From positions 1-28,997 of IMG/VR virus record IMGVR_UViG_3300025131_000294: a DNA stretch of 28,997 bases; one strand, given 5' to 3'. This document shows positions 3,996 to 18,669 of this stretch, one piece after another; position 1 is the first letter of the stretch; each line of letters starts with the position of its first letter. The position numbers and the translations under genes are program-made. The stretch is from a virus. Below the pieces are notes generated by a model that did no database searches, was not told the DNA's origin, and saw only the letters and a list, made by a program, of their open reading frames with translations.

Positions 3996-4097
3996 TATAA
4001 TACCATAAAAAGTTTGATATTTAACATAATTTGTGTTGATAACTATGTTAATAAGCTCATACTGACAAAAAAACTTACAATTATTAAAGAAAAAGCT

Positions 4098-4895: not shown

Positions 4896-4925
4896 TTGAC
4901 TCATGTTATAAAATAGTTGTATATT
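4896..4925 (+). promoter_or_regulatory. Promoter of the tRNA-Gly/tRNA-Glu operon
   Basis: TTGACT (4896-4901), 18-base spacer, TATATT (4920-4925), nearly identical to the promoter at 4098. The first downstream feature is the tRNA-Gly at 4942, and the next terminator is at 5396, so the transcript would be entirely non-coding. Confidence 0.8.
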
Positions 4926-4941
4926 GCATAAGTTAAGATTT

Positions 4942-5013
4942 GCGGTGTAGGTATCAAGAGAGATACGGCGGATTTCCAATTCGCAGAGTGTGGGGCAGTT
5001 CCATAACACCGCT
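4942..5013 (+). tRNA. tRNA-Gly (TCC) with non-canonical D and T loops
   Basis: A 72-base cloverleaf folds perfectly. The acceptor GCGGTGT/ACACCGC (7 pairs) carries T73. The D stem is GTATC/GATAC with loop AAGAGA. The anticodon stem GCGGA/TTCGC has loop TTTCCAA, giving anticodon TCC (4975-4977). The variable region is AGAG, and the T stem TGTGG/CCATA has loop GGCAGTT. Glycyl-tRNA synthetase identity features (G1-C72, C2-G71, C35, C36, T73) are all present. However, the D loop lacks the GG pair and the T loop lacks the TTC element needed for the normal elbow. No CCA is encoded. This resembles, by feature, the elbow-less tRNA-Gly species known from staphylococci that escape EF-Tu. Confidence 0.75.
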
Positions 5014-5277
5014 CACAGATCAGAGGTGAAACTGATATAAGGCCTTTCCAGATCGATAACCGGTATGAAATCTATTAAAGGTTAATATGTCATTACAAGT
5101 GGGAAGCTAACGGCGATAATATCATATGGCGGCGGAAACGATTGGATGACAAAGGTTATTTATAAGGGTTATAGAGGCATTCAGTTTCCCTCTCCACTAT
5201 TATAGGTTTCTATACGATAGTTGTAATGATAAGGTGAGCATTAGATTGCTTATAAAGAAAACCTTACCCCTATAGTA
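5014..5277 (+). ncRNA. Structured RNA between tRNA-Gly and tRNA-Glu
   Basis: These 264 bases contain no gene but can fold extensively. TCATTACAA (5090-5098) pairs with TTGTAATGA (5221-5229), closing a domain of about 140 bases. Inside, GTGG (5099-5102) pairs with CCAC (5194-5197), AGAGG (5173-5177) with CCTCT (5189-5193), and ACTAT-TATAG with CTATA-ATAGT (5196-5221). ATCAG/CTGAT near 5021-5038 and TAAGGT/ACCTTA near 5231-5268 form smaller flanking stems. G+C is higher than in neighbouring genes. It is flanked by two tRNAs on the same transcript and so is likely released by RNase P. I see no match to RNase P RNA, 6S, SRP RNA or a group I intron core. Confidence 0.5.
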
Positions 5278-5349
5278 AGCCTGTTCGTCTAGTGGTTAGG
5301 ACTCAGGGTTTTCATCTCTGCAACAGGAGTTCGATTCTCCTACGGGCTA
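5278..5349 (+). tRNA. tRNA-Glu (TTC)
   Basis: The acceptor AGCCTGT/ACGGGCT gives seven pairs, with A73 at 5349. The D arm GTCT...GGAC contains GG. The anticodon stem CAGGG/CTCTG encloses loop TTTTCAT with anticodon TTC. The T arm AGGAG-TTCGATT-CTCCT is standard. CCA is not encoded. Unlike the tRNA-Gly upstream, it has ordinary loops. Confidence 0.93.
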
Positions 5350-5360
5350 CTATTAACAGT

Positions 5361-5434
5361 TGAAGGTTTTTATTCCTTTCTACCTTCATCTGGTGGGCCG
5401 GTAGTTTAACTCCTTTTCTGCCGGCCACTTTATT
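5361..5434 (+). terminator. Double hairpin terminator of the tRNA operon
   Basis: A first hairpin pairs TGAAGGT (5361-5367) with ACCTTCA (5382-5388). A second, stronger one pairs GGCCGGTAG (5396-5404) with CTGCCGGCC (5418-5426), 9 pairs with one G-T, followed by ACTTTATTTTTATT. It ends the tRNA-Gly/tRNA-Glu transcript just before the next promoter. Confidence 0.8.
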
Positions 5435-5460: not shown

Positions 5461-5490
5461 TTGACTCGTATTATAAAAATGTTGTATATT
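5461..5490 (+). promoter_or_regulatory. Promoter, TTGACT-18-TATATT type
   Basis: TTGACT (5461-5466) and TATATT (5485-5490), 18 bases apart; the spacer is identical to that at 10306. It drives the AAA+ ATPase gene at 5531. Confidence 0.8.
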
Positions 5491-7172: not shown

Positions 7173-7814
7173 ATGTTATTACAAAAAGTAACTGATTACA
7201 AAGTAGAATTAAGTGAATATTATAAGGTTGTTAAACCATTTATAGAGAAATGGCATTATTCACATAGTGTAAGGGGATTACATGCTTGCTTGTCTTATTG
7301 TTTTGGTTTATTTGATGAGGATATATTTGGATTACCTAAACTAATAGGTGGTATGATATATGGAGTTCCAAGTAGTAGGATGGAGCAGAAGTCTGTAAGG
7401 TATGGAAACAAACCTGGTAAAGTATTAGAGTTAAATAGGTTGTGTTGTATAGACGATACACCTACAAATACGGAAAGTTATTTTATCGGACAAACATTAA
7501 AGTGGTTATCCAAGAATACAGATTACCAAGTTGTTGTATCTTATGCAGACCCTGATTATGGACATGGTGGAACTATTTACAAGGCTACCAACTTTATTCA
7601 TTATGATATGACTGGAACTGATAAGGTATTAATAGTTGATGGTAAAAAATATCATAGAAGAACATTAAGGAAAGTATCACCGTATGCTGAAACTATACGA
7701 CAAAGATTAGAAGATAAGGATCCAGATGTATATTGGAAAAAGACTTGTGAGAAACATATTTATATTTATTATTTAGATAAAAAGTTAAAGAGGAAAAGAA
7801 ATAAAAGTAACTGA
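7173..7814 (+). CDS. Mom-like DNA-modification acyltransferase, copy 1
   Basis: A 213-residue protein similar to the Mom family of phage Mu, GNAT-fold enzymes that convert adenine in DNA to a carbamoylmethyl derivative and so block restriction. Visible conserved parts are FIEKWHYSH (23-31), FGLF...IGGMIYG (44-64), VLELNRLCC (84-92) and SYADPDYGHGGTIYKATNF (123-141), then a VDGKKYHRRTL segment. The ATG at 7173 is nine bases after tRNA-Pro, so it is probably on the tRNA transcript; the ribosome site is poor. A second copy follows directly as a tandem duplication. The activity is inferred from family resemblance. Confidence 0.8.
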   Translation: MLLQKVTDYKVELSEYYKVVKPFIEKWHYSHSVRGLHACLSYCFGLFDEDIFGLPKLIGGMIYGVPSSRMEQKSVRYGNKPGKVLELNRLCCIDDTPTNTESYFIGQTLKWLSKNTDYQVVVSYADPDYGHGGTIYKATNFIHYDMTGTDKVLIVDGKKYHRRTLRKVSPYAETIRQRLEDKDPDVYWKKTCEKHIYIYYLDKKLKRKRNKSN

Positions 7815-8421
7815 TTACAAAGTAGAATTAAGTGAATATAAGGTTGTTAAACCATTTATAAAAAAATGGCATTATTCACATAAAACACATGGATTGAAAG
7901 TTAAATATTGCTTTGGGTTATTTAGAGAAGGTAAATTTGGATTAGATAATATAATAGGTAGTATGATATATGCATTACCAGCTATGCCAAAACCATCACA
8001 AAAATATTATCCTGAAAGTCCTGATAAAGTATTGGAGCTTGTAAGATTGTGTTGTATAGATGATACACTTACTAATACTGAAAGTTATTTTATTGGCAAA
8101 ACATTAAAATGGTTAAGAAAAAATACAGACTATAAAGTTATTATATCTTATGCAGATCCACATTTTGGTCATGAAGGTATAATATATAAAGCTTCTAATT
8201 TTATTCATTATGGTATGACTGGTACTAAAAGATCAGTTTTGGTAGATGGTGAAAGATTTCATGAAAGAATATTAACTGATACACATTCTTTTGCTGTTGA
8301 GGTACAGGGTAGATTAAAAGAGAAGGATTCCGATATAAAGATTTTTACTACAGAACCTAAACATATTTATGTTTATTATTTAGATAAAAAGTTAAAGAGG
8401 AAAAGAAATAAAAGTAATTGA
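7801..8421 (+). CDS. Mom-like protein, copy 2 (no normal start codon at full length)
   Basis: This frame repeats copy 1 from its sixth residue (VTDYKVELSEY...FIKKWHYSH) to its end (LDKKLKRKRNKSN). The frame is open from 7789, but the aligned N-terminus offers no ATG, GTG or TTG; an ATA at 7801 lies six bases after a GAGGAAA ribosome site. The first usual start in frame is TTG 7894, which would remove the KWHYSH segment. The frame is +1 relative to copy 1, so full-length expression would need ATA initiation or a +1 shift. SYADPHFGHEGIIYKASNF and the other family motifs are intact, so decay is not obvious. It may be functional, a domain-truncated variant, or a pseudogene in the making. Confidence 0.65.
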   Translation: MKVTDYKVELSEYKVVKPFIKKWHYSHKTHGLKVKYCFGLFREGKFGLDNIIGSMIYALPAMPKPSQKYYPESPDKVLELVRLCCIDDTLTNTESYFIGKTLKWLRKNTDYKVIISYADPHFGHEGIIYKASNFIHYGMTGTKRSVLVDGERFHERILTDTHSFAVEVQGRLKEKDSDIKIFTTEPKHIYVYYLDKKLKRKRNKSN

Positions 8422-18335: not shown

Positions 18336-18669
18336 GGGGATGAGTTTGGTTTCGATTGGTGTTTTTAGGTATAAAAATACAAGTAGTATGATTGACTTAA
18401 ACAATCAACAGCTAGTAATAACTGGCAATTATAACACATACAATGTAGCCTACGCGTAGGTTACCATCACCCTTTAACTCCGATAGAAGATAAGGTGGTG
18501 TCATAATCGGAAGAACCATCGTAAGTTAAGCAAATCTCAATCTCGATGTAAAATAACGAATTGTCTGGAAAGCGGACTTTGTTGGTGGGAAAGAAACCAA
18601 ATAAACTTGTGAATAATTTTTATATTAATGGATATCAAGACCTGAGTTCGAGTCTCAGCATCTCCACCA
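18336..18669 (+). ncRNA. ssrA: Phage tmRNA (transfer-messenger RNA)
   Basis: The tRNA-like end is complete. Acceptor GGGGATG (18336-18342) pairs with CATCTCC (18659-18665), followed by ACCA. The T arm is CTGAG-TTCGAGT-CTCAG. The conserved 5' segment TTTGGTTTCGATTGG is present. A long helix joins TATAAAAAT (about 18371) with ATTTTTATA (about 18616). A GATTG/CAATC stem fits pseudoknot 1. The tag frame starts near 18424 (GGC) and reads GNYNTYNVAYA before TAG at 18457; the stop lies within a hairpin GTAGCCTA-CGCG-TAGGTTAC, as in known tmRNAs. The RNA is one piece, 334 bases, and rescues stalled ribosomes with SmpB. Confidence 0.93.

Follow-up and report, generated by a model that had tools for sequence, protein, structure and literature searches.

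A tRNA-Gly-like RNA with remodeled loops accompanies Mom-family genes in phages and may serve as a dedicated glycine donor

The window analyzed here, a virus record of 28,997 bases from a phage also represented in IMG/VR by a 61,778-base contig, encodes an RNA that has the form of a glycine tRNA and carries unusual sequences in both its D loop and its T loop, raising the question of what a phage would use such a molecule for. The features considered, all on the positive strand, are:

4896-4925, +: sigma-70-like promoter TTGACT-18-TATATT, directly 5′ of the tRNA-like RNA (consensus match only)
4942-5013, +: tRNA-Gly-like RNA, recognized from its sequence, fold and relatives
4942-4948/5006-5012, +: acceptor stem of this RNA
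4949, +: A8
4951-4955/4962-4966, +: D stem
4956-4961, +: D loop AAGAGA
4975-4977, +: anticodon UCC
4989-4993/5001-5005, +: T stem
4994-5000, +: T loop GGCAGTT
5013, +: U73 (CCA not encoded)
5278-5350, +: ordinary tRNA-Glu (TTC), found by ARAGORN and Rfam
7173-7814, +: Mom-like DNA-modification protein (PF25680, phrog_1384), about 2.2 kb downstream of the RNA and its putative partner
about 7789-8421, +: another Mom-like protein, in tandem with the first (open frame whose start codon is uncertain)

Read by segments, the RNA is GCGGTGT AG GTATC AAGAGA GATAC G GCGGA TTTCCAA TTCGC AGAG TGTGG GGCAGTT CCATA ACACCGC T, in which every stem pair forms (acceptor 7/7, D 5/5, anticodon 5/5, T 5/5) to give a complete cloverleaf, with one G-U pair in the anticodon stem and one in the T stem. 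Its fold energy on the positive strand is -26.8 kcal/mol (z -3.78), a value equalled by 0 of 200 shuffles. Sequence and fold thus confirm the intact stems and the two loop sequences described in the original prediction, as well as its claim of intact glycine identity bases, since G1-C72, C2-G71, U73, C35 and C36 are all present. Position 8 is an A, where tRNAs usually carry U8. The RNA is passed over by existing tools: ARAGORN (standard tRNA mode) reported the other tRNAs and the tmRNA of the window and missed 4942-5013, also at relaxed thresholds, and an Rfam cmscan search with 4227 families gave no tRNA match (RF00005) at this position even at E values up to 10. A group I intron or other known non-coding RNA was rejected here, as the Rfam matches up to E 10 were chance only. 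When the window was compared with phage records at the DNA level, the tRNA-Glu alone was matched. The covariance model R1 scores the window RNA at 88.6 bits (E 6e-23), as expected by construction from a model that includes it.

The promoter-like site has a near copy at 5461-5490, preceding the next gene, and similar stretches occur in the window at 4081, 9445 and 10284. The tRNA-Glu and the tRNA-like RNA probably belong to one transcription unit. On the 3′ side of the tRNA-Glu, hairpin loops with TATTCCTTTCT and AACTCCTTTTC at 5370-5384 and 5408-5418 resemble the 3′ end of 16S rRNA and have counterparts in L006, L007 and L010, and they are possible anti-Shine-Dalgarno or terminator elements. 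Another resemblance to rRNA is found at L007:5177-5191, non-coding and 5′ of tandem copies of the tRNA-like RNA, where TGTAACACCGCCCGT recalls the universal 16S rRNA 1392-1406 motif. A separate uncharacterized RNA, the conserved hairpin element GAGAG..ACC..CATACTT ... CAGTCCCTC..GGTTCTCTCCTCAC, lies 5′ of a MoxR-like ATPase gene (L007:5593-5663, L006:3837-3928, L010:5636-5721, L018:1210-1316, L031:1641-1704) both with and without the tRNA-like RNA, and a diverged form may be present near 5161-5205 of the window. The window also encodes a phage tmRNA at 18336-18669 with the tag peptide GNYNTYNVAYA.

The original prediction proposed a search of relatives for conservation of the loop change, and allowed that these might reveal the RNA to be a decayed copy. 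That search shows the loops recurring in dozens of phage contigs. L007, a phage whose AAA ATPase marks it as a relative, carries the RNA twice in tandem at the corresponding location; the loops are identical and the stems differ. A blind pattern search of IMG/VR with both loops and CCA returned 37 stretches, 36 of them consistent with the fold, a recurrence far beyond chance. Repeating the pattern without CCA added only L093 and L103, in which C35 and C36 are retained, and the Thr-like L099 and L100. Over 30 RNA sequences, 97.1% of cells are paired against 67.1% in shuffles, and 209 are compensatory against 56.6; the structure signal is lost once pairing partners are slid. With the same loops in scores of loci and covarying stems, decay is ruled out.

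The loops also vary together. Taking D-loop positions 4 and 5 as 18 and 19, the D loop AAGGGA is found exclusively with the T loop GTCAGTT (8/8) and AAGAGA with GGC[A/G]GTT in 44 of 45 cases; G19 and C56 never vary, and 18-55 switches from A.G to G.U. Because of this invariance and the 18/55 covariation, the elbow is likely remodeled rather than absent. The earlier statement that the normal elbow cannot form is right only in part: a normal elbow is absent, yet a modified one appears to have been kept. L281, a phage whose Mom is of the window type, carries a related RNA with the D loop ATAGGA and a canonical T loop, TTCGACT, an intermediate that fits derivation of the family from an ordinary tRNA-Gly. 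The AAGAGA and GGCAGTT loops occur as well in L099:6161-6234 (-) and L100:1145-1218 (+), two large virus records that lack a Mom-like gene, in RNAs with anticodon GGT (Thr), A73 and the acceptor stem GACCATC/GATGGTC; perhaps the same remodeled elbow serves another amino acid there. L060, a window-related phage whose record has neither the Gly-type RNA nor Mom, carries at L060:1501-1573 an odd tRNA-like RNA with anticodon CAT and T loop GGCAGTA, directly 3′ of its tmRNA.

Most relatives have the RNA overlapping or directly adjoining a gene of about 250 residues that belongs to phrog_1384/PF25680, the Mom family. Searching from the RNA, 34 of 35 virus records that hold it also hold phrog_1384, the exception being a 6 kb fragment, and the sole chance pattern match has no phrog_1384; among 27 pattern matches on genome contigs, a Mom-like frame lies at the RNA in 12/12 that are consistent with the fold and 0/15 that are not. 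Searching from the protein, the RNA is found at mom in 57/57 loci of one Mom clade (at least 51% identity), 36 of them on contigs absent from the RNA search, and is absent at the loci with 38-47% identity. More distant Mom lineages have it in 26 of 48 loci, each time within or beside mom and on either side of the gene. A survey of 248 genomes of Planctomycetota hosts found Mom in 10/10 RNA-positive genomes versus 9/238 others (p about 5e-13). The RNA-linked Mom proteins form several deep lineages with identity down to about 20%, so the pairing is either old or the result of repeated recruitment of the RNA. Some Planctomycetota MAGs hold up to four mom and RNA units per genome on different contigs (L062-L065, L067, L069, L071, L076, L082, L085 and L087), which suggests either a mobile unit or more than one prophage.

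The evidence tying the window's own RNA to Mom is co-occurrence within its phage family, in which five members have both the RNA and Mom and three have neither. Among 79 window-type Mom loci, the RNA lies within 4 kb solely in the window's phage, and 15 larger window-type Mom records yielded one more, with a canonical T loop. The RNA was not found in 16 cultured Mom phages checked, including Mu, ICP1, phiSHEF2, RaK2 and Melnitz. Weak matches to model R2 in Melnitz, S-SSM7 and L195 were read as tRNA-Trp, tRNA-Thr and ordinary tRNA-Gly, respectively. The RNA is on the 5′ side of mom in L035, L334, L335, L307, L316 and L324 and on the 3′ side in other loci, and in the window it is about 2.2 kb away with a promoter-like site of its own; because of this variable placement it probably acts in trans.

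The conserved positions indicate what is asked of the molecule. At the 57 protein-first loci, G1-C72, C2-G71, U73, C34, C35 and C36 are all invariant and A8 is present in 57/57, while position 33 is T25/A15/G12/C5. The 57/57 conservation of C35 and C36 in these samples is free of pattern bias, the first pattern having included CCA, which makes their conservation circular in that set. The widest alignment has 23 sequences, the distant ones having been found with a model biased toward glycine-set bases; conserved in at least 22 of them are G1, C2, A8, G10, C35, C36, G53, C56, C61, G71, C72 and U73, and these include the bacterial glycine identity set (U73, G1-C72, C2-G71, G3-C70, C35 and C36; PMC9976931) minus G3-C70. 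Even where the loops are altered or the D arm has collapsed, the acceptor end and U73 are kept. Features of decoding tRNAs, namely U33, U8, G18 and the T54-A58 elbow, are not maintained across the family, G18 occurring only in the AAGGGA variant and positions 54 and 58 being mostly G. U33 is required in decoding tRNAs. Because the identity set is kept while position 33 varies, we read this pattern as selection for glycylation without selection for decoding. Compared with canonical bacterial tRNA-Gly, the phage RNA thus shares the cloverleaf with 7-bp acceptor, D, anticodon and T arms and the identity set, but departs in the D loop, the T loop and positions 8 and 33, and, unlike ordinary tRNAs, is missed by ARAGORN and Rfam. 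The Mom-linked RNAs at L329:2971-3060, L302:2631-2702, L320:2635-2705 and L310:2623-2693 are very divergent, with the anticodon arm enlarged or the D arm collapsed, and still retain the glycine acceptor end.

The partner proteins belong to the same Pfam family as Mom of phage Mu (PDB 8bv8, PF25680): the window protein scores 134.9 bits against PF25680 and RNA-linked proteins 63-178 bits, with a curated cut-off of 27.1. For the predicted structure of one RNA-linked Mom (pLDDT 88.7) the best match is Mu Mom 8bv8, with GNATs next, and the serine mutated in the inactive Mu Mom S124A is conserved in RNA-linked Mom-like proteins, with T in one lineage. Mu itself has no such tRNA-like RNA. In Mu the Mom homolog modifies DNA adenine, the known Mom base being N6-carbamoylmethyl-adenine, and to our knowledge the donor for this modification is not settled. 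Some RNA-linked mom genes adjoin a ParB/adenine-methylase-like gene (L017, L033; motif judged by eye). An acylated CoA such as glycyl-CoA has been proposed in review as the Mom donor (PMC7824862). A second line of comparison is TacT, a GNAT toxin that acetylates glycyl-tRNA and recognizes U73 and G71 (PMC9976931); recognition of glycyl-tRNA by a GNAT parallels the proposed pairing of Mom and RNA, but TacT works as a toxin, by acetylating the amino acid, whereas the phage RNA is co-encoded with its enzyme and conserved as a partner.

The reading we favor, at a probability of roughly two in three, is that the RNA works outside the ribosome as a dedicated glycyl-tRNA and is the source of glycine for Mom-type enzymes, as suggested by the GNAT fold and S124 of Mom, the TacT precedent and the special tRNA-Gly of S. 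aureus. The RNA would be transcribed, trimmed and given CCA, and a host bacterial-type glycyl-tRNA synthetase would charge it with glycine through the retained identity set. The remodeled elbow, A8 and the free position 33 would keep it off EF-Tu and the ribosome and mark it for the Mom-family GNAT, which would then move glycine onto the adenine N6 of the phage's DNA. The N6-glycyl-adenine so formed, an isomer of N6-carbamoylmethyl-adenine, might speculatively become the known base by an intramolecular Smiles-type rearrangement. In S. aureus, non-proteinogenic tRNA-Gly isoacceptors with G18-G19 replaced bind EF-Tu weakly (PMC4052509) and supply glycine to FemXAB (PMC4052509, PMC4810233). The proposed likeness is a tRNA-Gly that would use EF-Tu weakly and serve a non-ribosomal transferase, so the original prediction's appeal to these tRNAs is apt for the RNA, though not for a cell-wall user; its suggestion of glycine supply outside translation is likewise strongly favored by the Mom linkage and glycine identity, with a Mom-type DNA-modification GNAT as the user. 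The phage RNA also differs in being phage-borne, in having A for G18 with the G19 equivalent retained, in the conserved new sequences of both loops, in A8 and the free position 33, and in a partner, unlike FemXAB, thought to act on DNA. Against a donor role stand the same loops in the GGT-anticodon RNA of two records without Mom, the many Mom phages without the RNA, whose enzymes would need host Gly-tRNA or another donor, the published alternative of glycyl-CoA (PMC7824862), and the fact that direct aminoacyl transfer yields an isomer of the known base. The broader proposition, that viral glycyl-tRNAs withdrawn from translation are donors in a tRNA-dependent DNA base modification, which would make glycyl-tRNA the general Mom donor with Mu using host tRNA, is put at slightly better than even odds.

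Other roles can be weighed against the same evidence. The RNA overlaps or abuts mom in fixed phase in most relatives, as might an RNA that regulates the mom transcript in cis, a tRNA-like fold sensing glycine charging or binding Mom with effects on expression or stability. This is unlikely given its 5′ position in the six loci listed above and, in the window, its own promoter-like site and a separation of about 2.2 kb and other genes from mom; nor would a sensor obviously need the invariant C35, C36, U73 and first two acceptor pairs. A somewhat smaller chance attaches to the Mom-like enzyme acting on the charged RNA, or modifying RNA, with no donation to DNA, a reading that sits poorly with the DNA adenine modified by the Mu homolog, the S124 residue conserved in RNA-linked Moms and the ParB/adenine-methylase-like gene beside some of them. 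In its favor, Mom is itself of the GNAT family, and the GNAT TacT acetylates glycyl-tRNA while reading U73/G71 (PMC9976931).

Translation offers a simpler role, as an ordinary or weak elongator tRNA-Gly, consistent with the intact stems, the glycine anticodon, the L281 intermediate with its canonical T loop in a Mom phage and the normal tRNAs that accompany the RNA in the window. It is nonetheless improbable, since U33 is unconserved, A replaces U8, G18 and T54/A58 are gone, D arms have collapsed in some relatives and the RNA is tied to one enzyme family. Slightly less probable again is a role that the original prediction also offered, as a decoy for anti-phage tRNA nucleases or a substitute that resists them, which has general precedent among phage tRNAs (PMC7824862, PMC12409363) but found no support here: it predicts neither the 57/57 linkage to a Mom clade, with its single enzyme partner, nor selection on acceptor identity, nor loss of U33 with the glycine set kept. 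Least probable of all is a decayed tRNA copy, or conservation due solely to overlapping mom coding sequence. The mom frame does run through the RNA in one large clade, yet compensatory changes far exceed those in shuffles, and this covariation refutes the idea; moreover, several copies are intergenic or have the mom stop codon within the acceptor stem, L035 has the RNA at the 5′ end, and the read-through tail of the mom frame is predicted to be disordered. Codon choice agrees, the D-loop codon TCA being fixed in 52/52 genes yet 5% of Ser codons there, and AGA being present in 46/52 yet 3% of Arg codons there.

The open papers searched yielded neither a tRNA-Mom link nor an account of an equivalent RNA; preprints and most subscription articles fell outside this scope, and a prior description there is possible. 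The RNA family is one that current annotation overlooks, and it forms a natural series of tRNAs pared to the needs of glycyl-tRNA synthetase, with loops, U8, U33 and sometimes the D arm gone, that is useful for synthetase and orthogonal-tRNA work. The constant presence of a glycine-specific RNA beside Mom genes makes glycyl-tRNA a concrete donor candidate competing with glycyl-CoA. If the dedicated glycyl-tRNA reading is true, DNA base modification would have a tRNA among its cofactors, a role for which we found no description in the open literature, and phages would have a new means to disguise their DNA.
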